DNA of 64,000 nt from Exiguobacterium acetylicum (GTDB taxonomy: Bacteria; Bacillota; Bacilli; Exiguobacteriales; Exiguobacteriaceae): the NCBI RefSeq assembly GCF_022170825.1, contig NZ_CP081879.1:62001-126000 (forward strand). Reading direction: 5' to 3'. The notes under the pieces were generated by a model. The model saw only the letters and a program-made list of their open reading frames with translations. It was not told where the DNA came from and did not search any database. Positions 2,760 to 40,944 of this stretch are shown here, piece after piece. The position numbers and the translations under genes are program-made. The first letter of the stretch is position 1, and every line of letters begins with the position of its first letter.

Positions 2760-5700
2760 TTATTTTATCTCTACGCCTGCGTATAACTGTTCGAAGAAGT
2801 CTCTCTTGTCGAAATGGATTCGTCTTGTCTCCGGGACGTAGTGAGCACCAGTCATCCGTATCTTCTCGAGGGTCTTATTCGGATCGAGCGAGATTCCGAA
2901 CTCCTGTGTGACGAACGATAGGAGTTCGTCCACGGACATGCCGTCAATGATACAGTCTCGGACGAAGTCGGTGAGATTCCTGACATGTTCACCTCGATAG
3001 AAGATGTCGCCCGTCGCCGATGGGATATAACGTATCCCTTCATGTGCTCGACAAAGTCGTTCGTAGAAGATGTCATCGAAGCCCAGTTCAAGGATTTTAT
3101 GCGGGACTCGTTCGTGGATGTTCTTGACGGTGAAGTATCTCTCGTCGGAAAAACTTCTAGAGACGATCTTCTGGAAATCGATGAGACCTGATTTTGCGAT
3201 GCCTATCTTCTCGAGTACGGAGATGTTCATGTAGTGATTTCTCCCTATCTGTAGGAGGTCGAGTCCTGACTGGAGTTCCGATATTGTCTTCCGGAACGAC
3301 CGTGTCTTCAGTAACGGAGATTCATCCAGCACAAAGTACTGATTTCCCATGAGAAGATTTCGGTAATAGCATTCACCACTCCCTATCTCTTCTCGGACGA
3401 TAAATCCGCCACTCAACACATAACCAACGCTTTTCAACATTTTTTTGTTCAGATATAGATTTCCTGAAGATTTGAGGACGGGAAATCCATCAATCAAATC
3501 CTGAGCGATATAGATGTCGTCGACGAGGATTCTTTTAAGGAAATTCTTATGAATCGTCGCTGGTATAGCAGACACATGGATTAGTTTTCGTTCAGGCGTG
3601 ACGTATTCCGGCAAATCAGTAAGCACGCGAGTCCGCGTGGATGGTCCATGTAACCCAAAATTCTGCTCTAGATGATTGATGAAGGCGTCCAGAGTGATGG
3701 GGGATAGCTTCTTGATCAATCCGGTGAACCATTTGATTTTATCCTCGACGCCTATCGCGAACTCTGGGATGCGTCTGATTTTAATGAAATCAAGGTCTAG
3801 CATACGTTTCAATACGTTATGCAGTTCGTGATGGTCCTTTATGTCTAACGACCTGAAATAGGATTCATTCGTTTCATAGACGAAGCTCGTACTGTAGATT
3901 CCTTCAGGCAGCATGAAGAGCTTTTCAAGATTTACTTTCTCCTCGACGATTCGATCGACCTCGAAATATCGGACCTTTTGGTCATAAGAGTGAATGCAAT
4001 ACGACGATTCTGCGATGGTACTTTCGAAATTATGTAAGGAGATTCCATACTCTTCGATGACACTTTTTTTACCATGAAGTTCTTCTTCGAGGAATTCTGA
4101 ATATCGTACATGATGGTTCTTGGTGGAATCAGAATCTCGTCCATGCATGAAAAAATACTTCTTCATGAGATTCCGCTTGGTCATCTTCACTACGTCACCG
4201 TTCTCATCTTCGAAGAGCGACTCGGCATGGAGAAATCTGATGCGTTGATCCGGAAGTAGTTGATTCAGACAGTCCAACTTACTCTTCTTGACGCCATCCC
4301 TGATTCGTTCTTTATTACATTTAAGTTTTAGCAGATAAAACGTCTCTTTCTTCTCTAGGAGTACCTCCGTAAAGAATTCGTGGTCGATAGCATATTCTCG
4401 GAATATATCGATGGTCCGACGTGCTTCCTTGATGTGCGTGACCGGAACCACCTCTAAGACCTTCCCCAACACTTGGCTAATCCTCTGATGGGATACCCCT
4501 TGTACTTTCGCGATGTCGGCAGTGCTCATCCCACTCAGACGTTTCTTCAGGAAGAGTTTTCCCTGTCCATCCTCCAAAGTTTCCAGGAACTCGTCGAGAG
4601 ACCTGAATTTTTTCTTCACATCAAGGTTCGAAATGCTTACGAACTTCAATTTTTCAAGGCGACGTAAACCTTCTGACGTTTCTCTTTCAATCAATCCTGA
4701 TACCATGGACCAGGAACGGAACGAAGATACATCCTCTACCCGGTCGTATACAGAAATCAATCGACGGACGATTTTTTTTAGATTTGGTCCATCACTGGTC
4801 TTTTTCACACGTCCTACTAAAGGAATCTTGCCATTTTCTGCATCGATCTCGTGAACACGATTCGATGTACTATTGTGTTCTGACGATACCCTCACTGCAC
4901 TGCCACGCATTCTTCCCTTACGTCCTACATATGATTCATAGGCGGACATGACTCTCTCATATACCGACGACCGCTCTACCCCTCCAGTCAGTTTCTTGAA
5001 TGTCTCATAAGCCATTCCGTCGAGGTCCGTGAAGCGTATCCGTGACGGGATCAGGATATTTTTAACGATATACTCACTCATCCCTTCTTCTGCAAGGACG
5101 AGGTGGTATAGCGATGTCATGCCATTCAAAGAATCAATCTCTTGTGGATTCAAATCAGCCAGGAGAGTCTTAATCGACTTTCTGATGGTTTGATTCGGCC
5201 AAATTTCTCCTTGTACCTTCCTACGTTTGATGATTTCGAGCGTGACGCCCGACTCCATCATCTTCGCTAGCTGACGGAAGCTGACGTCACGCCCCTTCTC
5301 GATTGCTAAATCGGCAAGGCATAATACTCTCTCGTCCATCCACACATCTGTATGATGTGAGGAATCCTTAATATTTTTTCCAGACGAGTATCCAACACCT
5401 TCATCGATGTCCAACCTTCCTTGGTGCCTGATATAAGAGTCGTAGGCGGACATGAGCTTCTTGTAGATGGATAACCTCTCCGCTCTTCCCGTCCGTCTTT
5501 GGAAGTCTTCATAGGTCATTCCTTCTAAATCCGTAAAGCGTATCCGTGACGGAATCAAGATTGTATTCACGATATATTCGCTCACACCTCCCTTGACCAG
5601 TACTAGATGATATAGCGATGTCATATCGTCCAAAGAAGCAACCTCTTCCTGGCTCATGTCAGCGAGAAGTGCCTTCACGGATTTTTTGATGGTCGAGTTC

Positions 5701-6416
5701 GGCCATATTTCTTTCCGGGTCGTTTTTCGGTTTATCTCCTCGAAAAGGACCCCTGATTCCATCATCCTCGACATCGAGCGGAAACTGACATCATGTCCTT
5801 TCTCGATCGCTACGTCAACAAGACATAACAATCTTCCATCCAATCGCTTTATTGATAGTGTCTCTCGGTCCCTATCCTCGGAACTACTTATAGATTTAAT
5901 AAAACGTTCATCCAGTGACGATTTTCTATTCACATTAATACGAAGTCTTCCGTTTTGTTCGATGTACGACAGATAGGCAGACATGACCTTCTTGTATACC
6001 GAAAGTCTCTCGACCCCTCCGGTCCGGCTCTTGAAGTACTCATAGGTCATTCCCTCAAGATCCTCGAGTCGTATTCGAGACGGAATCAAGATTGTATTCA
6101 CGATATATTCGCTCACACCTCCCTTGACCAGTACTAGATGATACAACGATGTCATGTGAGCCAGCGAGTCCACCTCTTGTTGGGTCATATTGTTCAGTAG
6201 AAATTTCACCTTTTCTTTCGTTGCAAGGTTTGGCCATATTTCTTCAGGGCTCTTTCTACGGTTGATGGCCTCGAGCGTGACGCCCGACTCCATCATCTTC
6301 GACATCGAACGGAAATTAAGGTTCTGGCCTTTCTCTACTGAAAGGTCTACCAGGCAGAGGAGTCTTCCATCCGACATCCGTTTTTTTTCTATTCGTGACA
6401 ATTCTTGATCTTTCAT
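2760..6416 (-). CDS. Giant paralogue 1: triple N-terminal repeat, sigma-4-like HTH, shared C-terminal module
   Basis: The 1218-residue protein carries three tandem copies of a ~140-residue unit (about 15-155, 192-334, 360-500), each with MTSLYHLVL, a GG(V/M)SEYIV-like helix, LIPSRIR, an L(E/D)GM segment and (K/R)xMSAY. A winged-helix-like stretch follows (about 545-600), then a sigma-70 region-4.2-like helix-turn-helix at about 621-660 (LSGMSTADIAKVQGVSHQRI). The remaining ~560 residues end in a module shared with four other proteins here (GFDDIFYERL, then ...FFEQLY). There is no sigma region 2, nuclease or ATPase motif. It is likely a large DNA-binding protein of unknown role. AAGGA lies 10 bases before the start, and it follows paralogue 2 by 54 bases. 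Confidence 0.85.
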   Translation of the reverse strand: MKDQELSRIEKKRMSDGRLLCLVDLSVEKGQNLNFRSMSKMMESGVTLEAINRRKSPEEIWPNLATKEKVKFLLNNMTQQEVDSLAHMTSLYHLVLVKGGVSEYIVNTILIPSRIRLEDLEGMTYEYFKSRTGGVERLSVYKKVMSAYLSYIEQNGRLRINVNRKSSLDERFIKSISSSEDRDRETLSIKRLDGRLLCLVDVAIEKGHDVSFRSMSRMMESGVLFEEINRKTTRKEIWPNSTIKKSVKALLADMSQEEVASLDDMTSLYHLVLVKGGVSEYIVNTILIPSRIRFTDLEGMTYEDFQRRTGRAERLSIYKKLMSAYDSYIRHQGRLDIDEGVGYSSGKNIKDSSHHTDVWMDERVLCLADLAIEKGRDVSFRQLAKMMESGVTLEIIKRRKVQGEIWPNQTIRKSIKTLLADLNPQEIDSLNGMTSLYHLVLAEEGMSEYIVKNILIPSRIRFTDLDGMAYETFKKLTGGVERSSVYERVMSAYESYVGRKGRMRGSAVRVSSEHNSTSNRVHEIDAENGKIPLVGRVKKTSDGPNLKKIVRRLISVYDRVEDVSSFRSWSMVSGLIERETSEGLRRLEKLKFVSISNLDVKKKFRSLDEFLETLEDGQGKLFLKKRLSGMSTADIAKVQGVSHQRISQVLGKVLEVVPVTHIKEARRTIDIFREYAIDHEFFTEVLLEKKETFYLLKLKCNKERIRDGVKKSKLDCLNQLLPDQRIRFLHAESLFEDENGDVVKMTKRNLMKKYFFMHGRDSDSTKNHHVRYSEFLEEELHGKKSVIEEYGISLHNFESTIAESSYCIHSYDQKVRYFEVDRIVEEKVNLEKLFMLPEGIYSTSFVYETNESYFRSLDIKDHHELHNVLKRMLDLDFIKIRRIPEFAIGVEDKIKWFTGLIKKLSPITLDAFINHLEQNFGLHGPSTRTRVLTDLPEYVTPERKLIHVSAIPATIHKNFLKRILVDDIYIAQDLIDGFPVLKSSGNLYLNKKMLKSVGYVLSGGFIVREEIGSGECYYRNLLMGNQYFVLDESPLLKTRSFRKTISELQSGLDLLQIGRNHYMNISVLEKIGIAKSGLIDFQKIVSRSFSDERYFTVKNIHERVPHKILELGFDDIFYERLCRAHEGIRYIPSATGDIFYRGEHVRNLTDFVRDCIIDGMSVDELLSFVTQEFGISLDPNKTLEKIRMTGAHYVPETRRIHFDKRDFFEQLYAGVEIK

Positions 6417-6470
6417 TTAATAATCATCCTTCTTAATCAATCTGAAACCATCGACAGGAACTACAGACGT

Positions 6471-8969
6471 TTAATCCTCTGGTCCATATACCATGTCCAA
6501 GAAACTTTGCCTATTCAAGAACACTCGCTCCAGCTCTTGAACATAGTACATATCAGAGCCTCTTATTTTTTCAATTAATTTTGACAATGCGATATCGATA
6601 CCGTACATTCTACGGATGTCTGATTGTAGGACGTCGATATCCATTCCGTCATGTACGACGCATTCGATGAAGTCCACCTGTCTCTTTTTTTCTTTCGAAC
6701 AATACATCACGATGGATGTCGCGAACTGAATGAAACGTATTCGTTTGTCGTACCGACAGATACTCTCATAGAAAATACCATCGAACCCGAGACCTAGGAT
6801 GGCATGATTCAATTCTTCTTGTATGTTCTTGACGGAGAAGAACCGACCGTCAGAAAAGTGTTCAAAAACTTTTTCCCGAAAATCCAACATCTCTTTTTTA
6901 CTGACACCCGCACGTTCAAGGACCGAAATGTTCATGTACGTCTCGTCGTCCACTCGGAACAAATCAAGATTCTGCTGAAGATTGACAAGAACCTTCCAGA
7001 ATGATTGTGTATTTTGTACTGCTGAAGAGTCATCGGTCTGGAAATAATCCTTCGTCAACAAAAAGTGACGGAAGTACCTTTCAGCATTCCCAAAACCTTT
7101 CCTTATCACGAATCCACCTCGTAAATCATAGCCGATCATGCCAAGATTTCGGTTATTCAGATATAGTTGACGGAAATTCTTTACGTCGGAATGTCGATTG
7201 ATCAACTCTGGCACCGTATAGATATCGTCGACCAGAACGGTCTTGATGAATGATTCTTCCTCCGTACTCAACTCGGTAATATCATGTACAAGTTCGTTAC
7301 GTGGAGTTAGATAGACTGACAACTCCATCTGTATCAAACTTCTCGACGAAGAGGCAAGAAGACCGAATCTTTCCTCTAACATCGATACGAATGCATCGAG
7401 AGGTATTGGACCCCATTCATCGATGAGACCTATTAACCAATCTAGTTTGCTCGTCACACCGACACTGAACTCTGGCATACGTCTAGTCTGAACCGTCTCT
7501 ATGTGGAGGTTGTCTTTTACGATGTTATGGAGTTCGAAGTAGTCTCGGATATCGAGAGCGAGGAAATAGTGAGCATGGCGCTCATAAATAATACGCATGT
7601 TATAGATACCGGGATCCAGTCGAAACAACTCTCGGAATGTGTTCTCCTCCTCGAGAATAGGCTTAACATCAAAATACCGGACCCTTCTTTTCGAGGATTG
7701 CAAACAACTTTCTATCCTGTCAGCAATTCCTTCAAATGCCCTTTCCGAAATCATGTAGTGTCTAATTACTTCCTCTTGGTTTCTAAGTTCTTCTTCTAAA
7801 AAGGATAGATATCGACGATGATGCTCAGTGACATGCTTAACTTCACGTCCTTCTAGAAAAAAATACTTCTCGACAAGACCCTTCTTCGAGAGAGGTGAGG
7901 CATTTCCCAAAACGTCTTCGTAAAGCCCTTCACTGACGAGCATCCGCTGTCTCTGCTCTGATTGTAAGAAAGAATAGATTTTTCTTTTGGACGAAGTACC
8001 TTTCGAACACTTTTCAGAAAGGAAATGATAGGTTTCTTTTCGTTCGCCTAACACAGTCTCGAAGAAGACAGGATCAAGTTCGTAACTCTCAAATAGATAT
8101 CTCATCCGTCTGGCTTCTATGATGTGTGTCAGAGGGATGCCAGAGACGACTTTTTCTAGAATTTGTCTGATTCTTTCACGTGTCACATTGTTGATGTCAC
8201 CTATTTCTTGGAGCGTCATCCCTTTCAGACGCTGTTCCATGATAGTTCTGCTTGTTTCTGGTATAGATGATAGGGCTTCTTCTAGGTGTCTGGTTCGCTT
8301 GCTCACTTGTTCTTCTCTAATATGGACTAGACCGTTTTGCGCTAGACGTTCTAATCCCGCAGAGACCTCGTGTTCTTGCAATCCCGTTTTTTCCACCCAG
8401 TCTCCTGGTATGGATTGGTCTGGCATTTCGTCGTATACGCTGGTCAAATCTTTTTCGATTTGATTCACTAATCGTTTCCCTAACTTTCTCGTCTGTATGA
8501 TGCCAGTATCGTAGGACTCATCCCTGACACCACCATCGTTCTCGAATGCCTTCATTAGTTTGATGAAGATGGCTTTACGCTCACCACCACCTGTCAGCCT
8601 TCTGAATGTTTCATAATCAATCGTCGTTAGATGTTCGTATCTTATTCCCGAGGGATGCAATAAATTTCTTACGATGTTCTCACTCACACCTCCATCTACC
8701 AAGACGAGTCTGTAGAGAGACTTCTTCTCTTCCATGATTGAGAGATCTTCTTCTTTGGCATCAAGAAATAGGCCGTGAAGTTTCTCCTTCACGTTCGCCC
8801 GTATCCCTCCTACCAGTTCCTCATCCCACTCTATGAAATCTTCTAGTGTATAGCCATCTTTCATCAACTTCGCTATCGATTGCAGGCTAAGCGTCGTGTC
8901 CTTCGAGTCCGCTAAATCAAGAACCCCTAACAAGCGAACATCCCTATCCTTCATCTCATCACGCCCCAT
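6471..8969 (-). CDS. Giant paralogue 2: sigma-4-like HTH protein
   Basis: This 832-residue protein has one copy of the N-terminal unit (about 10-143, with KKSLYRLVLVDGGVSENIV). A winged-helix-like segment follows (175-215), then the clearest region-4.2-like HTH of the family (about 243-281, TLQEIGDINNVTRERIRQI), close to the sigma-70 signature. The long C-terminal part matches paralogues 1 and 3, ending GFDGIFYESI ... FLDMVYG. The ATG at 8969 is preferred over one 24 bases upstream because AGGAGG sits seven bases before it. Without sigma regions 2 and 3 it cannot be a normal sigma factor; I infer specific DNA binding. Confidence 0.85.
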   Translation of the reverse strand: MGRDEMKDRDVRLLGVLDLADSKDTTLSLQSIAKLMKDGYTLEDFIEWDEELVGGIRANVKEKLHGLFLDAKEEDLSIMEEKKSLYRLVLVDGGVSENIVRNLLHPSGIRYEHLTTIDYETFRRLTGGGERKAIFIKLMKAFENDGGVRDESYDTGIIQTRKLGKRLVNQIEKDLTSVYDEMPDQSIPGDWVEKTGLQEHEVSAGLERLAQNGLVHIREEQVSKRTRHLEEALSSIPETSRTIMEQRLKGMTLQEIGDINNVTRERIRQILEKVVSGIPLTHIIEARRMRYLFESYELDPVFFETVLGERKETYHFLSEKCSKGTSSKRKIYSFLQSEQRQRMLVSEGLYEDVLGNASPLSKKGLVEKYFFLEGREVKHVTEHHRRYLSFLEEELRNQEEVIRHYMISERAFEGIADRIESCLQSSKRRVRYFDVKPILEEENTFRELFRLDPGIYNMRIIYERHAHYFLALDIRDYFELHNIVKDNLHIETVQTRRMPEFSVGVTSKLDWLIGLIDEWGPIPLDAFVSMLEERFGLLASSSRSLIQMELSVYLTPRNELVHDITELSTEEESFIKTVLVDDIYTVPELINRHSDVKNFRQLYLNNRNLGMIGYDLRGGFVIRKGFGNAERYFRHFLLTKDYFQTDDSSAVQNTQSFWKVLVNLQQNLDLFRVDDETYMNISVLERAGVSKKEMLDFREKVFEHFSDGRFFSVKNIQEELNHAILGLGFDGIFYESICRYDKRIRFIQFATSIVMYCSKEKKRQVDFIECVVHDGMDIDVLQSDIRRMYGIDIALSKLIEKIRGSDMYYVQELERVFLNRQSFLDMVYGPED

Positions 8970-9112
8970 CTCTTCCCCTCCTTCTTCAATCATTGCAACA
9001 TAATTATTTTTAGATGTTTTTCAAATCGAACATGCGGTTCTCGATATCATCATAAGTTCAATGGTGATATCGATTGGCATGCACATCGGGAGTAAATGAA
9101 AATCAATAGTCG

Positions 9113-11671
9113 TTATTTGAAACTACGTTCATATAGTCGTTCAAAAAAAACATTCTTATCACTATGGAGACTGCCGGTCTCGATGATGTAGTGATATCCA
9201 GCTCCTTTTAACTTCTCGATTACTTTTCTGGTGTCCAACGAGACACCGTACTTCTCTTTTATCAGGCCAATTAGTTCAGAAACCTCGATTCCCTCTTCTA
9301 CTTCATCTTTTAGGAAATCAGTAAGATTTTTCTTGTTTTTCGAACGGTAGAATATGTCTCCACTTCCTAGAGGGATGTAACCGACCCCTTCTGATTCACG
9401 GCATATACGCTCATAAAAAATATCATCGAAACCTAACTCCAATAACTCGTGTTGCATCTCACCGTGAATATTTTTCATGCTGTAGTATTGTCGATTCATG
9501 AAAAAGGAAACGACTTGATTTTGAAAGTCTAAAATATCCTCTTTGGAAAAACCAATTTTTTCAAGGACGGATAACTTCATGTATAAATTTTCTTCGATTC
9601 TTAATAGTTCATAGGATTTCTGGAGATCAGACAACACTTTTAAAAACGATTGGCTGTTCTGCAGGGGAGATTTATCGACCTTAAAATAGTCTTGTTTCAG
9701 AACTAATCTTCTAAAGTATCTTTCAGCTCTCCCTATTTTTTTGCGAAGCACGAAACTACCGCTCACCACATATCCTAAATCATTCAACACCAAATTATTT
9801 AGATATTTTTGTCGGAAATTGCTGATTTCATGATGACTCTTCTCAAGTTCAGCTATGGAGTAGATATCCTCTACCATCAGCGCTTTGATGAATGCTTTTT
9901 CTTCTACGTTCAACCGTGAGATTGTACACGTCAACCTTTTTTGTGAGTCGATGTGATCGGATAGTTCCGCTAGGATGAGGCTTCGAGACGATGCAGCATG
10001 CAAGCCATAATTATTTTCTAGGTATTGCGCGAACTCAACAACGGTTATGGGCTCCAACACACTTATGAGTTTAAGCATCCATTCGAACTTATCTGAAATG
10101 TTTATAGAAAAATCAGGCATACGTCTCATTTCGATTGAATCTATCGTCAAATGGTAACGAAGCAAATTATGTAGTTCGTAATAATTACGGATATCTAACG
10201 AATTGAAGTATGACTCATTCTTTTGGAATACGAGCTTCGTGCTATAGATACCATCATCAAGCTTGAATAAATCTTCGATGACAGGTTTTTCGTCCATGAT
10301 GTGTGAAGATTGGAAATGACGAACCTTTCTCTTGTCAGATTGTATGCAGTAAGGCGCACGGGAAACTAAATTCTCAAAATTTCTAACGGAAAGTGCACAC
10401 GCATGGATTTCCTCATTCCTGTCACGAAGTTCTACCTCAAGGAATTCTAGGTAACTGGCATGATGACTCTCTATATGCTTAATTTCTCTCCCGAACAGAA
10501 TGAAGTATTTTTCCACTAGATTTTGCTTTGATAAAACCACCGGTCTCCCATTCGAATCCTCAACCAACGATTCGACATACAACAATCGCTTCTTCTGATC
10601 GGAAGTCAAGAAGTCGTATGTTTCTCGTCTCGCTCTCTCTCCTTTGAAACATTTTTCCTTTATGAAATAATAGATTCTCTCATCTTGCATTAAGATGTTT
10701 TTGAAAAAATTCAAATCCAACTTAAAGTTTTGAAAGAGATATGCATGATTCCCTACTCCACTGATGTGGGTTACAGGAATTTTCGAGAGTGCTTTATCTA
10801 ATATCTGACTCACATATTGATGAGAAATTTTATGCTCTTCCGCAAGAACCCTTATACTACGACCACTTAGACGCGCTCTTAATATGTCTCGAGTACGCAC
10901 GTTCTTTTGGCCTTCTATGAATTCATCAATACCTATGGTTCTTTTTTTAATCAAGCGACCATCTATATCTACCATGCCTTGGTGTTTCAGTCTGAATAGA
11001 GTTCTCATGGCTGAATCTTCATCGGCCTCAAGCATTTTTATCCATGAAGTGATGCTCTCTTCGTCTGACATTCGATCGAAAACAATAATCGCTTTTTCTT
11101 CAATCGATTCAGAAAAAGTATTGTTTGTTTGTATGCTCTCTTGATTCGTTTCGACAGTTAGATTAACGACTGTCTGTATGTTTTCTTGATTCGTCTCAAC
11201 CATTAGATTTACGGTATGTCCTTTGATTCGATCGACATAACTATTATGAGCGGTCATGATTTTATGAAACAAAGCAAGCTTTTCTTTCCCGCCAGTCAGT
11301 GCTTTGAATTTTATATAATCCAAGCCTTCCAAATCACTAAAGCGTAAATCCGAAGGCAATAAAAAGTTCCTGACGATGGTATCGGTCAGACCATTTTCGA
11401 TGAGAAGTAGGCGATAAAAGGACTCTTGGTTCTTCAAGAAGTCGAATTCCGCTTTGCTGATGTTGTTCAAGATATTCTGTATTTTATTATTGATGATTGA
11501 ACTGACTCCATCGATTTTGCCGAAGTTTACGAATAAATCTTCAAGTGTCTTACCAGATTTCATGATTCGAATAATCGGATTCATGCCTATCTTTATACCT
11601 TTCGTTTCTCCTAAATCTATGAGGTTCAGGATTCGTAGATCCATTTTCACGTAGCTATCATTTTGATTCAT
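9113..11671 (-). CDS. Giant paralogue 3: sigma-4-like HTH protein
   Basis: This 852-residue protein has the same plan: a single N-terminal unit with ESFYRLLLIENGLTDTIV, a linker holding a short internal duplication (two NLTVETNQE(N/S)IQT-like segments), the HTH-like segment (SGRSIRVLAEEHKISHQYV, about 255-295) and the shared C-terminal module (GFDDIFYERI ... VFFERLY). Base composition is more AT-rich than paralogues 1 and 2. An upstream ATG (11707) is open, but a TATAAT-like element overlaps its leader, so the ATG at 11671 is preferred; its AAAGGA is rather far (14 bases). The gene begins just past the vsr stop. Confidence 0.82.
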   Translation of the reverse strand: MNQNDSYVKMDLRILNLIDLGETKGIKIGMNPIIRIMKSGKTLEDLFVNFGKIDGVSSIINNKIQNILNNISKAEFDFLKNQESFYRLLLIENGLTDTIVRNFLLPSDLRFSDLEGLDYIKFKALTGGKEKLALFHKIMTAHNSYVDRIKGHTVNLMVETNQENIQTVVNLTVETNQESIQTNNTFSESIEEKAIIVFDRMSDEESITSWIKMLEADEDSAMRTLFRLKHQGMVDIDGRLIKKRTIGIDEFIEGQKNVRTRDILRARLSGRSIRVLAEEHKISHQYVSQILDKALSKIPVTHISGVGNHAYLFQNFKLDLNFFKNILMQDERIYYFIKEKCFKGERARRETYDFLTSDQKKRLLYVESLVEDSNGRPVVLSKQNLVEKYFILFGREIKHIESHHASYLEFLEVELRDRNEEIHACALSVRNFENLVSRAPYCIQSDKRKVRHFQSSHIMDEKPVIEDLFKLDDGIYSTKLVFQKNESYFNSLDIRNYYELHNLLRYHLTIDSIEMRRMPDFSINISDKFEWMLKLISVLEPITVVEFAQYLENNYGLHAASSRSLILAELSDHIDSQKRLTCTISRLNVEEKAFIKALMVEDIYSIAELEKSHHEISNFRQKYLNNLVLNDLGYVVSGSFVLRKKIGRAERYFRRLVLKQDYFKVDKSPLQNSQSFLKVLSDLQKSYELLRIEENLYMKLSVLEKIGFSKEDILDFQNQVVSFFMNRQYYSMKNIHGEMQHELLELGFDDIFYERICRESEGVGYIPLGSGDIFYRSKNKKNLTDFLKDEVEEGIEVSELIGLIKEKYGVSLDTRKVIEKLKGAGYHYIIETGSLHSDKNVFFERLYERSFK

Positions 11672-11729
11672 GTTCTGTCGATTCGTCCTTTCGGAAAATT
11701 TAACCATACCTATAAATTATATACCAATA

Positions 11730-12203
11730 TCAATCGCATGGATCATCCACGTCCACCTCTTCCTCGAGGTACGTCTCGAGTCTTGCCTCCTGGACGTCCG
11801 CCCCCGAACCGAGGAGTGCATGATACGTCTTATCGATTTCGTCAATTACCCGGTCGAAATCGTCGTTCACCTCATGCTCCCAGTAACGCAGTACGGTCCA
11901 TCCTTGACAGAGATAGTGCTCCGTCTGCTCCTTGTCCCGCTCGCGGTTCCGCTTGATTTTGTTGCGCCAGAACTCGACGTTGCTCTTCGGCTCCTTATAA
12001 TGTGCCGGACAGCCGTGCCAGAAGCACGAATCCAGGAACACGACGAGACGCTGTGCCGGGAAGGCGATGTCTGGCGTTCCGAGTAGTCGTCGATAGTTCT
12101 TACGGTATCTGAGTCCTCGATGCCATAGTGCATGTCGCACCTTGACCTCCATCTTCGTGTCCGTCCCCTTGACCTTGCTGAGGTTCTTGTTCTTGATTGC
12201 CAT
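11730..12203 (-). CDS. vsr: Very short patch repair endonuclease (Vsr)
   Basis: The 157-residue protein shows the Vsr signature: KGTDTKMEVKVRHALWHRG, YRRLLGTPDIAF, then VVFLDSCFWHGCP and RDKEQ. The Asp of GTPDI and the FWH.C segment belong to the PD-(D/E)XK-like active and zinc sites. Vsr nicks at T:G mismatches left by deamination of 5-methylcytosine, which fits the C5 methyltransferase immediately upstream. Two adjacent ATGs exist; AGGAGG lies eight bases before the second (12203). A terminator separates it from the methyltransferase gene, so it may have its own promoter. Confidence 0.95.
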   Translation of the reverse strand: MAIKNKNLSKVKGTDTKMEVKVRHALWHRGLRYRKNYRRLLGTPDIAFPAQRLVVFLDSCFWHGCPAHYKEPKSNVEFWRNKIKRNRERDKEQTEHYLCQGWTVLRYWEHEVNDDFDRVIDEIDKTYHALLGSGADVQEARLETYLEEEVDVDDPCD

Positions 12204-12261
12204 CATTTTTGCCTCCTCTAGTCATTCTCATACTCTGCTTTTCCCGTTCAGGGGTCCTCCG

Positions 12262-12332: not shown

Positions 12333-13601
12333 TCAGTTGTTGTTGATGTAGAAGGATTCCTGTGCAGGCACCGGTACCGGGTGTCTGTCCTCGATCTGCT
12401 CGATGCGCCAACCCATCCGTTCGATGAGACCGACGACCAGTGCGTTCCCCATGCAGAAATAGCGCATCCGGTCACTCATCGTGCTCGTCCAGTTGTCCGG
12501 GAATCCGTTCAGGCGCTCGCACTCGAGCGGCGTCAGGAATCGCCGGCGGCCATCGACCTCGACCACGTGCGAGCTACGGTTCGTCGTCCCCTCGCTCGTC
12601 AGCATCGTACGACCCGGCTTGTCGAGGTCATCGATTTCCGACATGCCACCCTCGGCGTAGATGTACTTGTGGCCGTCCGCCGACGTCCGCTCGATTTTCT
12701 TCGCGCCACGCAAGAAGTTGAACTTCTCAATCGCGGAGTCCTTGAGATAGAACTTCTCAGGCACCGTCTCCTCCGGCTGCAGGATGTCCCGCAGCGGGGT
12801 CGGCTTCTCGAAGACCGGCTCCGTATGGATGGAGTGGAAGCGACCATCATGCATGTAGCCCGAGTTGTGGAAGTTCGCAGAGAACGTGTCGGAAATCTCG
12901 ACGATGTCGTCCGGGAGCATCCCTTCGAGTCGGCGGTTCTTGATGACCTCCGGCTTGACCGGGAAGACCGGTGCGAAGAAGCCCTTCTCGAACAGGATGT
13001 CGTCCGCCGTATAGGACTCGAGTTCCTTGGAGAATCCGGAGTCGTCACGCGTCGCGAAGATGAACACGCGTCTACGACGTTGCGCCATTCCATATTCCGC
13101 GGCGTTGAGGACACGCCATTCGACCTTATATCCGAGGTCACGGAACGTCGCCAGCATGACCGCGAAGTCACGACCACGTTGTTTCGCCGGTGACTTCAGA
13201 AGACGATCGACGTTCTCGAGGAGGACATAGCGCGGTGCCGTCGCCTCGATGATGCGCTTGATTTCCCAGAAGAGGACACCCTTCTTGCCTTGTATCCCCT
13301 TCTCGCCCGACAGGCTGCGTGCGACCGAGTAGTCCTGACACGGGAACCCACCGACCACGATCTGTGCGTCCAGGTTACGGAATGCCTCGTCCGTCACGGT
13401 TGTGATGTCCTCGTTGGAGTGAATCCCTTCATCGAAGTTCGACGCATAGCACTCGAAGGCATCCTGTGCCTTGCGTGAGGGCTCCCACTGGTTCCCCCAT
13501 ACGACCTTGAAGAGGTCCTCGTTCGCCTTCTCGAGCCCGACGCGGAAGCCGCCGACCCCTGCGAATAGCTCGATTGTGTTGAGCCTTTTTCTTGTTTCCA
13601 T
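12333..13601 (-). CDS. DNA (cytosine-5) methyltransferase, M.Sau3AI-like
   Basis: The 422-residue enzyme has motif I (ELFAGVGGFRVGLE, 11-24), motif IV with the catalytic cysteine (GGFPCQDYS, Cys88), motif VI (LLENVDRLL, Glu128), motif VIII (QRRRRVFIF) and motif X (GNALVVGLI near the C-terminus). Runs such as KGVLFWEI, KSPAKQRGRDFAVML and FPDNWT are close to what I remember of M.Sau3AI, which methylates cytosine in GATC; that assignment is from memory. The ATG at 13601 has AAAGGA 11 bases upstream and is preferred over the ATG at 13613, which overlaps that site. A Sau3AI-type endonuclease lies at 45.8-47.3 kb, and vsr is next door. Confidence 0.92.
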   Translation of the reverse strand: METRKRLNTIELFAGVGGFRVGLEKANEDLFKVVWGNQWEPSRKAQDAFECYASNFDEGIHSNEDITTVTDEAFRNLDAQIVVGGFPCQDYSVARSLSGEKGIQGKKGVLFWEIKRIIEATAPRYVLLENVDRLLKSPAKQRGRDFAVMLATFRDLGYKVEWRVLNAAEYGMAQRRRRVFIFATRDDSGFSKELESYTADDILFEKGFFAPVFPVKPEVIKNRRLEGMLPDDIVEISDTFSANFHNSGYMHDGRFHSIHTEPVFEKPTPLRDILQPEETVPEKFYLKDSAIEKFNFLRGAKKIERTSADGHKYIYAEGGMSEIDDLDKPGRTMLTSEGTTNRSSHVVEVDGRRRFLTPLECERLNGFPDNWTSTMSDRMRYFCMGNALVVGLIERMGWRIEQIEDRHPVPVPAQESFYINNN

Positions 13602-13717
13602 AAATACGAACATCCTTTCGCTCTGTTTCAGTTTCTCAATTATATCAGATATCTTTAGGTTTGAACAGATCGAAATTTTCTCGATGCCAACTTCGTCCCC
13701 GCTGCCTCCCTCCCGGC

Positions 13718-13791: not shown

Positions 13792-14565
13792 ATGGAACCG
13801 CAGAACAATGATACGAACGAGATGAAGAACAAATCCTTCCGCCTGTCGGAAGAGGTGACGCGTCGGATCGGCGAGCTGGTCCGGGAGCGTCAGGTGACGA
13901 CGAACCAACTGTTCGAGGAGTTCGTCACGTTGAGCGAGAACCGCTCGCACGATCCCTTGCTGACGGAGGAGGACGAACAGCTCTCCCTGTTGCTACGCCA
14001 AATCGGCAACCTGTTCGAGGAACGCTCCCTACGACTGAAGCGTCAGGCGACGGATCTCGCGGGCGTCAAGACACGGCACGAGGAGACCATCTCCCGGCTC
14101 GAGGACGAGGTGATCGAGGAACGAGCTCGGATCGTGGAGGAGGGACGTCTCGCCGGCGAACGGCTCGCTGAACGTGAACAGGAACTCGTCGCTTCCGCAC
14201 AAGAGGCGGAGGCGGGACGGAAGAAGGCGGAGGAGGCCCTCGCACGTCTCGAGAAGGAGCATGCCGACACGGTGAAGACGTTGCGCAAGGAACTCTTCTC
14301 GCTCGAGGAGCGGCTCCGTCGCGGCGATGAGGAGAAGGAACGACTACAGCATCAGCTCCATAGCCTGACCGCCGTCGCGGACGACTACAAGGACCGTTCC
14401 CGTAACGCCGAACGCCTGGAGGAGGAGAATCGCGAGCTGATGATGAAGGTCCGGCTGCTCGAAAACGAGAAGGAGCGACAGGATGCCGCAATCGCCGAAC
14501 GCATCGAGCTCGCCGTCCTGCGCGACCGCGAACGACGCGCCGATGAATCAGGGGACGGTCGATGA
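13792..14565 (+). CDS. Coiled-coil protein with RHH/KfrA-like N-terminus
   Basis: The 257-residue protein begins with KNKSFRLSEEVTRRIGELV and RQVTTNQLFEEFVTL (about 12-50), which resembles a ribbon-helix-helix or KfrA-type DNA-binding head. From about residue 80 it is an almost unbroken charged coiled coil rich in E, R, L and A. In-frame starts at 13753 and 13786 exist, but GGAG at 13780-13783 fits the ATG at 13792. Its stop overlaps the HNH start by four bases (ATGA), so the two are translationally coupled and probably work together. The function is unknown; a specificity or scaffold subunit for the nuclease is inference. Confidence 0.75.
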   Translation: MEPQNNDTNEMKNKSFRLSEEVTRRIGELVRERQVTTNQLFEEFVTLSENRSHDPLLTEEDEQLSLLLRQIGNLFEERSLRLKRQATDLAGVKTRHEETISRLEDEVIEERARIVEEGRLAGERLAEREQELVASAQEAEAGRKKAEEALARLEKEHADTVKTLRKELFSLEERLRRGDEEKERLQHQLHSLTAVADDYKDRSRNAERLEEENRELMMKVRLLENEKERQDAAIAERIELAVLRDRERRADESGDGR

Positions 14566-15674
14566 ACCGTATCGTCCCGCAGGACCTCATACCAGGTAAG
14601 GTCTATCCGGCAGGGACGGATTCAACCTCCCACTTCGCGAACGAACCCTTGAGCCGTCTGTTCCGTTTCGGGGACGGACTCCGCGGACTCGGCAACCAAG
14701 GGGGCATCCGTCGTTCGATGGTCGAAGGACGGGATGGTGCCCCACGGGAGGAGGCGTTCACGGTCATCCTCGACACCGGAAAACAATCCGAATGGAGGAA
14801 CGAATACGACCCCACCAGCGGCATTCTCGTCTATTATGGGGATAACCAGACCCCTGGCAAGGACTTCCGTGAAACGAAGCAACGTGGGAACGAGACCTTC
14901 CTGAAGTATTTTGACCGTGCGTATTCCGTTGAGGAGAGCCATCATGCTCCGTTCTTCTACTTCGAGCGTGTCGGTAACAACGATGTACGCTATGTCGGAA
15001 TCGCCCTGCCTTATGTGGAGGGAATGACGCGTGGCGTGGCGCTCCGTCGTCAGCAATTCCATCATCAGGGTGCAGGCGCGTCATATGAGAACCTCGTCGC
15101 ACGCTTCACCGTCCTCCCGCTCGCCGTCTCGGGCGAATGGCTCGTCGACTTGAAGACGGGAATCATCGGTGGTCCGAACGAGCCTGAAGCCTGGCGCGCG
15201 TTCCGCGACGATCGTTCCATCATATCATCGGATGACGATGCTTTGGACGACCCGGCAGTCGAAGATTTTTCCCGACCACCGCGCCTCCACGAAGGTGCGA
15301 GGACGACGATGTATCGCCTCTCCCAGTCGCGCTTCCGGGAGTCGCTCCTCAGACGCAGCTCTTGTTGTGAGCTATGCGGACTCGCGGTACGAGAGCTCCT
15401 CGTCGCGAGCCACATCCTTCCCTGGGCGCATTCGGATGACCGACAGAAGGATGATCCCGACAACGGACTCGTCCTCTGTGACATGCATGACGGCCTGTTC
15501 GATAAGGGGTTCATCTCGTTCGATGAGGAGGGGAGAATCCTCTTGACCTCAAGGCTCGACGCGAACAGTCGGCGCCTCGTCGGTATCCGGGAGGACATGA
15601 CCATCCGGATGTGGCCAGGACGCGAGGTCTACATGCGACATCATCGTGCACGCTTCGAGGACCCACTCCGATGA
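14562..15674 (+). CDS. HNH restriction endonuclease (HNH_2 type)
   Basis: The 370-residue protein has an N-terminal domain with FANEPLSRLFRFG, NQGGIRRS, then VYYGDNQTPGKDF, the pattern of the N-terminal domains of several modification-related restriction enzymes. A C-terminal HNH domain (about 265-345) contains CELCGL, ASHILPWAHSDDRQKDDPDNG and LVLCDMHDGLFDKGFISFD, with the H, N and H residues and zinc cysteines in place. It is coupled to the coiled-coil gene and diverges from the C5 methyltransferase, so it is either the partner nuclease or a modification-dependent enzyme; the sequence alone does not decide. Confidence 0.85.
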   Translation: MNRIVPQDLIPGKVYPAGTDSTSHFANEPLSRLFRFGDGLRGLGNQGGIRRSMVEGRDGAPREEAFTVILDTGKQSEWRNEYDPTSGILVYYGDNQTPGKDFRETKQRGNETFLKYFDRAYSVEESHHAPFFYFERVGNNDVRYVGIALPYVEGMTRGVALRRQQFHHQGAGASYENLVARFTVLPLAVSGEWLVDLKTGIIGGPNEPEAWRAFRDDRSIISSDDDALDDPAVEDFSRPPRLHEGARTTMYRLSQSRFRESLLRRSSCCELCGLAVRELLVASHILPWAHSDDRQKDDPDNGLVLCDMHDGLFDKGFISFDEEGRILLTSRLDANSRRLVGIREDMTIRMWPGREVYMRHHRARFEDPLR

Positions 15675-15796: not shown

Positions 15797-18700
15797 TCAT
15801 TTACCTACGATCAACGTCTTCTCGAGCGACTTGAAGTTGTTTCGTTCGACCTTCACGACGAGTTTCGTCTTCGCCGTCTGTCTCGGGATGGATAGCTTGA
15901 ACTTCCCATCCTTCGCTACTAGGACCTTCTTCGAGATGCTCTTGCCATTCTTGAAGACTTGCACGGAGGAATTCCGTTCCGTCTTCCCCTCGACGAAGCG
16001 TGAGGAAGATGTCACGTTCTTGACCTCTAGATACTTTATCGTGCCTTTCACGGTACGCCGTTCATAAGGAGAATCGATGCCATCCTTCCCCTTCGCCTTG
16101 ACGACTATCCGAGAGCCTATCGGCCAGGCCTTGCCACTTAGGCGGTAGTTACCGCGACTATCCGCTTTCACGAGATACTTCGTGGTATTGATTTTGATTT
16201 CCACGGTGAGTCCGGGCTCCGACTTCCCGGTAATCGTCTTCGAATTATCGAAGACCGGGTCCACGGTCGGCTTCTTCGGTACGTGCTTCAAGACCACCTT
16301 TTTCTCCGAACGGTTCCCGACCATATCCGTCACGCGTAGGAGCAGTTGTTCTCGTGTACCGAACGCTCTGTTCACGACGTACTCGAACTCACCGCCTGAT
16401 GCGGTCCTCACATAGAAGATTCGCTTCGACTTCTGATATATTTCGACGGTCGCACCAGGTTCGCTCGTACCGTAGAGTCTCGTACCGATGTTCCAGTCAT
16501 CTCGCCAATCGATTCCGACGTTCGTGCTCGGTGCGATGGTGTCCGATTGCTTCGCCTGGTACACCACTTTTGAGAGAGCATTCCTACGTGAGAGGTGTAT
16601 CTTGAGCTCCGAATGATTCTTGAGAGGCTTGTCGAGATTGAACACGACCTTCTCGGCGAATCCTTGGGAGATTTTTTTACCTTCGTATTCGAGTGTGAGA
16701 TATGGATCGACCCTCGAACCTTTGATGTTCGTTTTCAGGACGACCGACTTCCTATCCTTCATCAACTCCACCGAGTTGATTCCTAATACGGAAGATGCAT
16801 CCTTTAGCGTGACCAGGTTATCGCCCTTGTCGAGTATCTCCATATCAACCTTTTCGGATGCCTTCAAGACATGAGTCTTGATGGAGAACCGTCCTGTTCC
16901 GTCAGCCCTCGCCGTGTATTCCCGACCTGAGATGCTCACCGTCACATTCGCCTGCGGTTCGGTCTTCCCTTCGATCGAATCTTCTCCTGCGTAAGGTGTG
17001 ACTAACATATCGAGACTAGGTCTTACGGTATCGATGGGAATGATTTTCTTACGACTCTCGTTCCCGTTCGGGTCCGTGCTGACGAACTCGAAATATGCTA
17101 CCCTACCGAAACTGGAATGGTGACTGTATACCACGTTATCCCAATATCGTCTCATGGCATCGACCGTCTCGGTCCCGCCGTCGTCGTAGACGATCGTGAT
17201 TCTCATCGTATCACCCGGCATGAGACTTGCTCTGATTTGGTCATCTCGATCCTGGATTGGCTCCACGTTGATTGCTGGAGGTGTCGTATCCCGATAGGTC
17301 AGTTCCACGGTCCGACGCACTTTATTCTTCTCATCATCAATCACTAGCTTATATGGACGATGCGCTGGACTGACGTCCGGAAGCTTCACGGTGAAGTTAC
17401 CTATCGCGTCACTATAAGTGGTCTCGACGTGTCCATCGTAATATATGGCAGAGACCTTGAGGTTCGGAGCCGTTCGTCCAACGATGCTATTGCTATCATC
17501 GTCCAAATCATCGATTCGCGGAGCATTAAGCTCCACATATTCTCCGGACACGGCATCGGATTTCACGTCATTATCATCCACTACTCGTAGAGTGAAACGG
17601 TCCCCGTCCAACCAATCTCCGACTCCAATCACATACTCGCCGGATTGATTACGATCGCGAAGCAGTGACTTACTGACATCGAAAGTTCCGTCGGCATGGA
17701 CCTTTGATATCTCTACCCATTTGTCGATTAACTTGTCGTTACGGACCGAGATTTTCATCGTACCGTTTTCGAAGTAGTATGATGGCTTTTCGTTCGGGCG
17801 TAGATCGATGACCTCCGTCTTCCTGCTCCTACTAACTCCTCCATCATAACGAGCCGTCACGGTGACCGTACCGTCGAACTCGTTCGGCATCAAGACAGAA
17901 TAGTGACCGTTCTCGTCGGAGGTGGTGTTCATCTGATAACTTCCCATCGCTCCAGTGAAGTCGATTCGGATGTCCATGAACCTCGGAGCAGTGCCCGTCA
18001 CTCTCGTGGAATCAGAGGTCACCTTATCCAGGAATAAATCATGACTATCAAAGTTCTTTTCGTATAATCGATGTGTTTCTTCACCGAAGTATGTCTCATC
18101 CTTTTTTTGCACCACGAACGTTATACTTGGCTCGTTCATGTTCCGGGGGATGGAGATTGAAAATCTACCTCGATTGTCGACTTCACCTAATCTTTGCAAG
18201 CTCCCTTTGTTCTTGACGTATATGGTATGTCCCGGCGTCCCGCTCCCATTGATATATTCACCCTCCTGGATGATTTCGCTGTTGATGATGAGCGGATTAT
18301 CGGAATTGATTTTCGGTCCAGTGACCGTCTGGGTGCTCTTGAATATTTCGGGCATCACATCTTCACCGACGCCATCCATTTTTATCCAATAAGTAGCCAC
18401 GCCATTATCGAAGTACGTCCAGCGGCTTAATGCTTTAGAGAAATAACCCTCTTCGTCGCTACGGAACCATGTACCATCATCCCAAACCCCATCCTCCATC
18501 TGGTTACCTAGGAAAAACTGCATCGAGGGTAACGTATTACCCGTCATGATGACCTGATCATCTTCCACCTTACTGGAAATCGTGAACGGAATTTTCTCTG
18601 GATTCGCTATGTCAAGGTTGACCACTTCGCTTTTCCGTTCGGCGTTACGTACATAGGCTCTTACACTACTGCTGTCCAGATTTTTTATCCTGAGCAGTGA

Positions 18701-19159
18701 GCCGTCACTGTAAACAACATCGCCGACGAGCACTACGACCTCGAAGCCTTGCGGACTATAGAAGAGGGATTCGCCGCTCTTGTTCTTCCCTAAATACTTG
18801 GGAGGTTGGATTGATTCCGTCATTTGTTCTGCGGAGTAGCGGGCGATTCTTCCATAGGTGCCGTCCATCTGTTTTTCACGTATCCCGATGGTCTCTCGAC
18901 CGATTTTCTGGTCGAATTTCATCTTGAACTTTCCGTCAGCATCCGACTTCGTCGCATACCATTTGTTGGCGAACAGAATCATCACATCGGTGTCCACTTC
19001 GGCGGTTCCTTCGATTTCTGAATCAATCGAAGTGAACGGCGTCAGTCCCACTTCCGCATGGACCGAGTTCTGAAGAATGAAGAACATCAAAGGCAGTACG
19101 AACATGAATGCATTGAATCGTAAAAGGTCTTTCACCCTTTTCAAGCTCACTTGAATCAT
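15797..19159 (-). CDS. Large secreted protein with bacterial Ig-like repeats
   Basis: The 1120-residue protein has a Sec signal peptide (KRVK n-region, hydrophobic FMFVLPLMFFIL, likely cleavage after VHA at about 35). At least eight beta-rich repeats follow, recognisable by (E/T/Y)G(T/K/S)xEPxxxV-type starts such as EGKTEPQANVTVS, YGTSEPGATVEIY and TGKSEPGLTVEIK. Each runs about 80-100 residues and ends in a DxxGxF(S/K) strand, as in Big_6-type bacterial Ig domains. There is no LPXTG or C-terminal membrane anchor. It is probably an extracellular adhesin or surface-associated protein. It is unlike the neighbouring DNA-metabolism genes. The second of two adjacent ATGs is better placed after AGAGG. 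Confidence 0.8.
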   Translation of the reverse strand: MIQVSLKRVKDLLRFNAFMFVLPLMFFILQNSVHAEVGLTPFTSIDSEIEGTAEVDTDVMILFANKWYATKSDADGKFKMKFDQKIGRETIGIREKQMDGTYGRIARYSAEQMTESIQPPKYLGKNKSGESLFYSPQGFEVVVLVGDVVYSDGSLLRIKNLDSSSVRAYVRNAERKSEVVNLDIANPEKIPFTISSKVEDDQVIMTGNTLPSMQFFLGNQMEDGVWDDGTWFRSDEEGYFSKALSRWTYFDNGVATYWIKMDGVGEDVMPEIFKSTQTVTGPKINSDNPLIINSEIIQEGEYINGSGTPGHTIYVKNKGSLQRLGEVDNRGRFSISIPRNMNEPSITFVVQKKDETYFGEETHRLYEKNFDSHDLFLDKVTSDSTRVTGTAPRFMDIRIDFTGAMGSYQMNTTSDENGHYSVLMPNEFDGTVTVTARYDGGVSRSRKTEVIDLRPNEKPSYYFENGTMKISVRNDKLIDKWVEISKVHADGTFDVSKSLLRDRNQSGEYVIGVGDWLDGDRFTLRVVDDNDVKSDAVSGEYVELNAPRIDDLDDDSNSIVGRTAPNLKVSAIYYDGHVETTYSDAIGNFTVKLPDVSPAHRPYKLVIDDEKNKVRRTVELTYRDTTPPAINVEPIQDRDDQIRASLMPGDTMRITIVYDDGGTETVDAMRRYWDNVVYSHHSSFGRVAYFEFVSTDPNGNESRKKIIPIDTVRPSLDMLVTPYAGEDSIEGKTEPQANVTVSISGREYTARADGTGRFSIKTHVLKASEKVDMEILDKGDNLVTLKDASSVLGINSVELMKDRKSVVLKTNIKGSRVDPYLTLEYEGKKISQGFAEKVVFNLDKPLKNHSELKIHLSRRNALSKVVYQAKQSDTIAPSTNVGIDWRDDWNIGTRLYGTSEPGATVEIYQKSKRIFYVRTASGGEFEYVVNRAFGTREQLLLRVTDMVGNRSEKKVVLKHVPKKPTVDPVFDNSKTITGKSEPGLTVEIKINTTKYLVKADSRGNYRLSGKAWPIGSRIVVKAKGKDGIDSPYERRTVKGTIKYLEVKNVTSSSRFVEGKTERNSSVQVFKNGKSISKKVLVAKDGKFKLSIPRQTAKTKLVVKVERNNFKSLEKTLIVGK

Positions 19160-19221
19160 CACCTCTTTGGTTTGATTGGTACTGCCAGATTGTTTCTAGA
19201 CGGGTTTGAACGACTCGTTCG

Positions 19222-22993: not shown

Positions 22994-23137
22994 AGCTTGT
23001 GATTCCTCCCAAATTTCATGTGCGTTAACCAGCTGGTGACGCGACTCCATAACTAAATTTTACGCATATATAGAAAATAAAGACAGTATGTTTTCGGAAA
23101 TAGTTGTCAGAATTTCTAAACTGCCCCCCATGACAGA

Positions 23138-34860: not shown

Positions 34861-34985
34861 GTGCAACCTCCTTCTCATAAAGAAGTACCTAAAGACGAAT
34901 CATCCTATACTTCGATTATAGAATGTGGACGAAAGGACGACCATATGAATTCGAATATGATGACAGGATTTTCTAGACACCAACG

Positions 34986-40232: not shown

Positions 40233-40944
40233 TACCAAAAGGTTCTGGAGACAGGTAAAGTAGACAATCGGGAAAGGCATTTTCATCATGCCGGTCCAGG
40301 AGAAGAGTAAGGTAATTATGAAAAATAACAATTTGGAGTAGGATGAGAAGCGAATACTTCATGTGAAGAAGAAGGAGAATCGGACGAACTTGGAAGAGGG
40401 ATAGGTGGCAGCAATCCGACCTGATCGAGGACGGCTATGCTATCGAGAATTTTGTGGACATCATCCGTCAGAAGGTACCGTCATATGACACAAATACCGA
40501 CTGACGGATGATGATGCGGAGTTGCTCAGATCAACTAGCGGTCCGACTACGCTATTCGAATTCAACGGCATACCTCGCGCAGCATCGGGTCCTTCGCATG
40601 GACATGGCCGGACGACTGATGAAGAACATAGAGCGTTACTCGAAGCTGATACTCCTCGACAAAGTATTCTGCACTACGGATTGCTGCTTTTCTTGGGCAG
40701 GCGTGACGAAGAGGAACATCGCGGATTACCGGGAGGCCGTCGAGTCATATGTAGCGAGGGGGTATCATCTTATCGATAGAAAAACAAAAACTTCAATTGA
40801 ATGAAAGCCTCAGCGCTACTAGCAATTGAGATGGTAGAGGAAGATTTAGTCACAATCGAGAATCGTAGTAATTATCTTTATTCGAAATATTTTGAAAAAT
40901 TCTATAAAAGCCATGATACCTATTTGAATAAGATTTATGAATGA
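40233..40944 (+). pseudogene. Decayed copy of paralogue 5
   Basis: The sequence follows the 35.5-36.6 kb gene closely from the KRFWRQVK codons to the final YL(D/N)(S/K)IYE codons. It carries in-frame stops (for example early, at AAGTAGAC), several frameshifts and at least three deletions, one removing most of the Sau3AI-like C-terminal block. The first third of the gene is missing. Nucleotide identity remains high, so the duplication is not ancient. Confidence 0.9.

Follow-up and report, generated by a model that had tools for sequence, protein, structure and literature searches.

The window analyzed here, a stretch of 64,000 nucleotides from Exiguobacterium acetylicum (NCBI RefSeq assembly GCF_022170825.1, contig NZ_CP081879.1, positions 62,001 to 126,000 of the forward strand), encodes five large proteins, three in tandem (A, B, and C) and two more at 32.9-36.6 kb (D and E), that share a C-terminal module and accompany a ParB-like protein, a SNF2 ATPase with an N-terminal PLD nuclease domain (SNF2-PLD), and an M.Sau3AI-like cytosine methylase (Table 1). 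With a probability of roughly 0.55, these five proteins, and a sixth encoded outside the window, are DNA-reader or adaptor subunits of an ATP-dependent, restriction-type defense module built on a Sau3AI-type restriction-modification (R-M) system of GATC specificity. The evidence that carries this reading, all of it directly observed, consists of the gene set itself, its linkage across genomes, the intact motifs of the engine genes, the lack of catalytic residues in the head of E, and the co-occurrence with the methylase. An earlier note, made from the sequence alone, had described a family of paralogs; because the family accompanies the ParB-like, SNF2-PLD, and M.Sau3AI-like methylase genes, its members are recast here as probable reader subunits of a multi-gene system.

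In the mechanism that we propose, each reader would employ its own DNA-binding head (a sigma-region-4-like helix-turn-helix, or HTH, in A-C, and a dead, GATC-binding half of Sau3AI in E), while the common C-terminal module would dock it onto a single shared engine formed by the ParB-like and SNF2-PLD proteins. The cytosine methylase would mark the plasmid and the host, and the Vsr endonuclease would repair deaminated 5-methylcytosine. A reader positioned on DNA judged as foreign, in that it lacks the methylase mark, would lead to loading of the SNF2 motor, upon which either the PLD domain would cut or the complex would block the DNA. A more specific version, which is appealing but which we regard as rather doubtful, is that the readers are interchangeable: paralogs with differing heads would dock via the common module on one ParB/SNF2-PLD engine, so that one plasmid could gain specificities by reader duplication and mutation, with promoter (-35-like) DNA being read by one sigma-70-like copy and the dead sensor half of a restriction enzyme having been captured in another.

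The C-terminal module is common to A-E, with a similarity far above chance. BLASTP searches among the five window proteins, with the database size set to 100,000, aligned protein E with the last ~260 residues of B, C, and A at 6e-23 to 1e-22, 2e-18 to 3e-18, and 3e-11 to 8e-11, respectively, and protein D with the module of B, C, A, and E at 1e-12 to 2e-12, 1e-10, 2e-6 to 4e-6, and 2e-6 to 3e-6, respectively; A, B, and C are mutually 37-38% identical across ~840 residues, and their homology thus extends beyond the tail. The shared module that the earlier note had recognized in five proteins is therefore borne out by the all-versus-all comparison, and the family is larger than had been proposed: the genome holds seven module matches, all of them on contig C2 (184,468 bp), namely A-E, a sixth intact protein (an 852-residue frame outside the window, with its module at G000:C2:20603-21412, G000 being the window genome), and a decayed piece. 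Some of the note's details require adjustment. The 1218 residues given for A stand, and the 832 and 852 given for B and C correspond to internal Met starts, the longest starts yielding 840 and 864; the module length of ~260 residues holds for A, B, C, and E and fails in D, which retains only about the last 200 module residues (profile positions 75-275) and reads GFDSTFFES in place of the proposed motif GF(D/E)D.FYE. Contig C2 is probably a plasmid, since its ParA genes and two of their neighbors, labelled Rep477 and Rep358, recur in Helios, a complete plasmid record of 110,633 bp from Exiguobacterium.

The earlier note knew of no described system with this composition, and a described family for the module was not found in the collections searched. 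In the module region only sub-threshold matches are found in Pfam (best E 0.012, in C) and NCBIfam (E 0.023, in E), there is no relative among PDB sequences (best E 0.88), and no match is present in PADLOC, whose scan took in 10 selected window proteins, or in PHROGs, which was scanned with A, B, D, and E and whose matches are confined to the HTH region of A and B. The findings that would have led the note to abandon its proposal, namely placement in a known phage structural or replication family or the lack of an alignment among the C-termini, did not emerge from the phage-record, PHROGs, or BLASTP searches; a phage origin, or a role as a phage structural or replication protein, is not supported, with protein B finding zero tblastn matches in 50,697 phage records and the module profile being confirmed in 0 of 31 viral stretches. 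In an alignment of 24 modules, aromatic residues, Gly, and aliphatic residues account for every position with at least 70% conservation, apart from one Glu (23/24), a Ser/Thr, and a Lys (17/24), a pattern that speaks for a structural or docking role and by which an enzymatic module is not favored. A description of the module as repeated winged helices is not claimed, a single one of 28 segment pairs having exceeded 50% probability (53%). Two clostridial genomes display a separate peculiarity, in that the module gene is split by a change to the +1 frame at a conserved AAATTACGG (L016, about 8040-8060; L018, about 9991-10011), and the eight genes counted at each locus contain a single CGG codon (among 3968 and 4680 codons), which lies in both cases exactly at this frame change; the split looks like programmed +1 frameshifting, which would decide module attachment.

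The association of the module with the putative engine extends well beyond the window. Profile searches covered 38 genomes of the window's own family, 299 of its class, 398 of its phylum, and 250 of the family of G219, in partly overlapping sets, and identified 17 module genomes, a total that includes G334 although its match is partial (positions 13-213 of 271), and from which G280, a fragment (E 8e-4), was dropped. Over all of these searches, the ParB-like gene is present in 16 of the 17. In the 299-genome set, which served as the control and represents a single draw, the intact module occurs in nine genomes from four genera, six of them from the window's family, and a ParB-like gene at E at most 1.7e-138 is found in 9/9 of these versus 0/290 others (Fisher 2e-17, a value that, like the one given below for the methylase, is uncorrected for relatedness). 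The module profile recovered 6 loci in the genome collection, five of which contain ParB-like and SNF2-PLD genes within the stretch, while in the sixth (L014, from s193 and on the same contig as G034) these genes lie about 15 kb away and were read in L054. Protein B, employed as a tblastn query against 72,556 plasmid records, was detected in 51 of them (48 Enterococcus, 2 Priestia, and 1 Exiguobacterium). Gene neighborhoods were read in 26 genomes or plasmids, in stretches of 16-21 kb, and in 17 of these a module gene immediately precedes the ParB-like gene, on the same strand and with a gap of <50 bases or an overlap, and SNF2 follows. The nine others comprise four of the window's genus, in which the genes lie apart on one contig, two Priestia plasmids, in which E and SNF2-PLD/ParB are convergent, two genomes with a contig end at this place (G312 and G294), and G334.

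More remote ParB-like matches (E 7e-10 to 5e-76) occur without a module match in five further genomes of the 299 set; four of the five adjoin a SNF2 gene, and the fifth lies at a contig start. One of these four pairs stands beside a type III R-M pair (in L075, 4773-12832, type III Mod and Res genes are directly followed by the ParB-like/SNF2 pair), and the three others have a C5-methylase and a NOV_C protein close by, joined in two cases by Vsr. The latter loci (L076, L077, L078) resemble the window in holding related ParB-like and SNF2 genes near a C5-methylase (3/3) and Vsr (2/3; L076 and L078), and differ from it in that no module protein matched, SNF2 lacks the PLD motif, and a separate NOV_C protein follows SNF2; they represent a related, possibly separate system.

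DGNRR is invariant in all 13 aligned members of the ParB-like family, in which the Pfam ddrB-ParB model is matched weakly in two relatives (18.5 and 17.0 bits, under the cut-off of 27.6), the window protein giving no match. All 22 SNF2 proteins tested carry Walker A, DExH, and motif VI, and 15 carry the PLD motif; the seven without it are three enterococcal and four remote proteins, the SNF2 that follows the ParB-like gene being fused to the PLD nuclease except in the enterococcal version. Both G000 and G034 encode six intact module proteins and yield one ParB-like match, and in G294 the ParB-like and SNF2 proteins are fused in a single 1024-residue frame (L074 1817-4891).

An M.Sau3AI-like methylase is present in 13 of the 17 module genomes, and the same 13 hold a Sau3AI-family match, if E heads are counted among the matches; this match consists of the E head alone in four genomes (G028, G033, G121, G219) and includes the catalytic half in 9/17, five of the nine being above the family cut-off. 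In the 299 set, the methylase, counted at E at most 1e-100, occurs in 24 genomes, which correspond to 8/9 module genomes versus 16/290 others (Fisher 4e-9); the methylase is thus commoner than the module, and the module is mostly accompanied by the methylase. Methylase, full-length Sau3AI-type protein, module protein, ParB-like protein, and SNF2-PLD are found together in seven of the 26 stretches (Sporosarcina, Priestia BP01R2, two Clostridia, G636, G803, and G854), the methylase being a partial frame in one clostridial stretch and running off the end of the stretch in G854. Nine methylases were aligned, five of them from loci with a full Sau3AI gene, and [FY]L[RK]G[AP]K[KR]IER is common to 7/9.

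The heads of the readers differ, as the earlier note had stated, although not in every respect as it described them. The tandem repeats of ~140 residues are three in A (residues ~16-154, 189-327, and 361-498), with one repeat each in B and C and a weak one in D (E about 1e-3). The sigma-70 region 4 HTH exceeds its Pfam cut-off in A (27.8 bits versus 25.7) and B (33.0 versus 24.1) and remains below it in C (13.9). The recognition helix of B, VTRERIRQI, matches that of SigA of solved structures, and [ST]RER[IV]RQ, whose residues we take to be those by which sigma-70 reads the -35 element, is kept in 14 of 27 aligned sigma-type proteins, B among them; it is altered in A (SHQRISQ), C (SHQYVSQ), and the sixth copy, and changed in 13/27 in all. 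The head of E is of a different kind, since it aligns only with the C-terminal half of the Sau3AI model NF040973 (positions 249-474 out of 475; 148.8 bits), with PDB matches to 2reu (5.8e-14), 7xm0, and 4pxg (C-terminal MutH-like domain). In Sau3AI, the C-terminal half binds GATC as an allosteric domain. The N-terminal catalytic MutH-like domain of Sau3AI has no counterpart in E, where the alignment covers the second half only, and the catalytic D...ELK is absent from 9/9 aligned E proteins and present in 5/5 full Sau3AI-family proteins; the Sau3AI-like head that had been noted is therefore a non-catalytic half. Proteins of 694 residues from G013/G003 were considered as D-like and rejected, the module tree grouping them with the sigma-type readers.

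The retention of five intact, divergent copies had been taken as a sign of diversifying recognition. All five are indeed intact and under purifying selection, and the readers evolve faster than the engine: the ratio of nonsynonymous to synonymous substitution rates (dN/dS) between the window and its s193 orthologs is 0.03-0.05 for the methylase, Vsr, SNF2-PLD, and ParB-like genes and 0.11-0.20 for A-E. In comparison with Helios, SNF2-PLD, the ParB-like protein, and the methylase are 85-93% identical, and B only 53%. No positive selection was found, no 100-codon stretch of A, B, or C rising above a dN/dS of 0.76. The proposal hence survives in that the heads, as well as the recognition helices of A, B, and C, differ, which fits the recognition of different DNA sites, as does the faster evolution of the readers, and is not upheld as diversifying selection in the strict sense. 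In the module tree, A, B, and C group with the Helios protein (88/82), which suggests duplication within the genus, and 12 E proteins lie on one side of a branch with weak support (86/56), a grouping by which the fusion to the Sau3AI C-terminal half may have arisen once.

A number of observations weigh against the restriction-type defense reading. Methylase and Sau3AI-family protein are both absent from 4/17 module genomes (G294, G312, G334, and G900), and G334 holds a module protein without a ParB-like gene. GATC as the site of the window methylase is inferred from its Sau3AI-like neighbors, and two clostridial methylases have a different sequence (LKGAKDILRK) in the variable stretch that the others share. 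There are also signs of decay, with SNF2-PLD in two frames in G900, a B-like gene broken in G028, and a second E broken in G803. In enterococci, module protein, ParB-like protein, and SNF2 are present, although SNF2 lacks the PLD motif (3/3 tested) and the stretches read lack an M.Sau3AI-like methylase (L010 and L013 by search; L011 and L121 by annotation), although L013 does contain a type I R-M set along with a SinI-family enzyme. Since the enterococcal version has neither, the core can do without this PLD cutter and this marker, which weakens a pure "cutter" interpretation; the core can thus act otherwise, perhaps by blocking, as reported for PbeABCD (PMC6459918). Finally, where a full Sau3AI nuclease stands beside the module, it is not explained why a second cutter should be needed, and the seven stretches with a full-length Sau3AI-type protein beside the core lend themselves to the idea that the module controls or safeguards Sau3AI-type R-M. 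In that case readers and ParB/SNF2 would not attack foreign DNA but would restrain, repair, or time the restriction enzyme (at unmethylated sites in the cell's own genome, for instance), with PLD active in processing. The methylase-Vsr pair, which displays a concern for self-DNA, would also suit such a function; however, neither a Sau3AI-type methylase nor such a nuclease accompanies the core in the whole genome of G900 or in the stretches read from BA3 and enterococci, and the PLD motif is retained in 15/15 non-enterococcal SNF2 proteins of the module genomes tested, so that we consider this explanation unlikely.

A link to transcription appears slightly less probable still. The sigma-4-like HTH could bind -35-like promoter DNA or RNA polymerase, with SNF2 acting like RapA, and plasmid or phage transcription would be regulated with no cutting of DNA, a notion that draws on the sigma-70-type recognition helix retained in B and 13 other readers, on the sigma factors that are the PDB matches listed at the HTH, and on the enterococcal SNF2 without a PLD motif. 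Regions 2 and 3 of sigma-70 are responsible for core binding and -10 recognition, yet neither is matched in A-C in the Pfam listing at E up to 1, a range in which HMMER filters drop most matches above about 0.1; in addition, the recognition helix is changed in A, C, and 11 others, E yields no HTH match although its module is the same as in A-C, and the R-M association would be left unexplained. The last explanation considered, to which we assign little probability, is that of a plasmid maintenance or anti-restriction module that protects its own carrier element. ParB-like and SNF2 proteins would in this view resemble phage P1 ddrB/DarB-type functions; many copies are plasmid-borne, the two relatives mentioned above match ddrB-ParB weakly, and the SNF2 part matches the phage helicase family phrog_62 at 202 bits; against this stand the several loci on contigs of 0.9-4.7 Mb (BA3, G003, G854, and G900), the absence of B from the phage records, and the link to the methylase.

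Among described systems, several share elements with the proposed reader-and-engine module. CglI and NgoAVII consist of a methylase, an R protein that is a PLD nuclease with a B3-type DNA-binding domain, and a DEAD-family N protein, and a vsr gene accompanies NgoAVII. They are described as R-M systems with a separate ATPase that is needed for cutting (PMC4267653). Methylase, ATPase, and PLD nuclease are all present in the window, which differs in that PLD and ATPase are joined in a single polypeptide, in that there is a ParB-like protein, and in that recognition seems to be split into separate large readers, several per engine; no B3 domain is matched in the SNF2-PLD protein (E up to 0.01) or in the readers. 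The likeness to DndCDEA-PbeABCD, a phosphorothioate-linked defense system, resides in SNF2-PLD, which matches PADLOC PbeA in three stretches (226.5 bits, best at residues 28-251). Among the 10 proteins scanned, no PbeC, PbeD, or dnd modification gene is matched, and PbeB only at E 0.0037 (15.5 bits) in the head of A. Pbe acts together with modification at GATC, has been suggested to pair with methylation in other genomes, and is reported not to cut viral DNA (PMC6459918). The module system would appear to work most like CglI/NgoAVII and carries a PbeA-like protein, and is filed with neither. To the Sau3AI R-M system it is tied by the E head, which equals the C-terminal half of Sau3AI, and by the related methylase, the difference being that E is devoid of the catalytic half; no description of module proteins with ParB/SNF2-PLD as part of that system was found in the literature searched. 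MzaA of the MZA system is likewise a large protein with a sigma-region-4-like HTH in a defense setting, but the MzaA match of B involves the HTH only (29.6 bits versus a cut-off of 800) and is not listed for A or C. A survey of BREX (NAR 2026) mentions sigma-HTH domains and ParB/Srx proteins in defense systems, and the text available contains no gene set such as module, ParB-like protein, SNF2-PLD, and methylase (PMC12839542). More generally, no description of this gene set was encountered in the literature searched, from which preprints and most subscription journals were beyond reach, so that this is no proof of novelty.

Should the reader-and-engine proposal hold, it would reveal an undescribed, multi-gene, ATP-driven layer on Sau3AI/GATC, among the best-known restriction systems, and the splitting of recognition into swappable readers would represent a natural design by which restriction specificity could change while the enzyme itself stays as it is. 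The proposal would also provide a function for proteins named "sigma factor-like helix-turn-helix DNA-binding protein" or "hypothetical", present on 48 Enterococcus plasmid records, and it points to a ParB-like/SNF2 core with varying nuclease and methylase partners.

Table 1. Module genes and associated genes of the window (positions within the 64,000-nucleotide stretch; aa, amino acids).
Feature	Position	Strand	Description
Module protein A	2760-6416	minus	1218 aa; head with three repeats of ~140 aa, sigma-region-4-like HTH at residues ~605-655, middle region, C-terminal module
Module protein B	6471-8993	minus	840 aa (832 from second in-frame Met); one head repeat, sigma-70-like HTH, C-terminal module
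Module protein C	9113-11707	minus	864 aa (852 from internal Met); one head repeat, diverged HTH, C-terminal module
Vsr mismatch endonuclease	11730-12206	minus	Pfam PF03852, 76.7 bits
DNA cytosine-5 methyltransferase (DCM), M.Sau3AI-like	12333-13613	minus	aligns with methylases from loci holding Sau3AI genes
SNF2 ATPase with N-terminal PLD nuclease domain (HSK...D...GSNN)	19222-21858	minus	proposed engine
ParB-like protein	21779-23050	minus	overlaps SNF2-PLD gene; sole match of its family in genome
Module protein D	32869-34878	minus	669 aa; head with a weak repeat and without an HTH match, C-terminal module shortened; gene divergent from E
Module protein E	35076-36599	plus	507 aa; Sau3AI C-terminal-half head without catalytic residues, C-terminal module
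Decayed module gene piece	40412-40765	plus	internal stop; E-like by eye
Sau3AI-family protein, full length	45827-47275	minus	D...ELK residues present; 161 bits, family cut-off 300

The genes for DCM, Vsr, C, B, and A follow each other in this order on the minus strand, with gaps of 126, 22, 119, and 54 bases, and form a probable operon of which DCM would be the first gene. Module gene A is adjoined, at 2137-2751, by a gene for an HNH_repeat (homing-endonuclease-associated repeat) protein without an HNH nuclease match. Between the methylase operon and the SNF2-PLD gene, at 15797-19162, lies a gene for a secreted-looking protein of 1121 residues, a relative of which occupies the same place in Helios. 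Additional restriction-type genes are located at 234-752, 1213-1899, and 14562-15674, the matches among such genes of the window being to a PADLOC methyl-directed restriction endonuclease and to PDC-S02, along with a protein that combines AspBHI-N and HNH.

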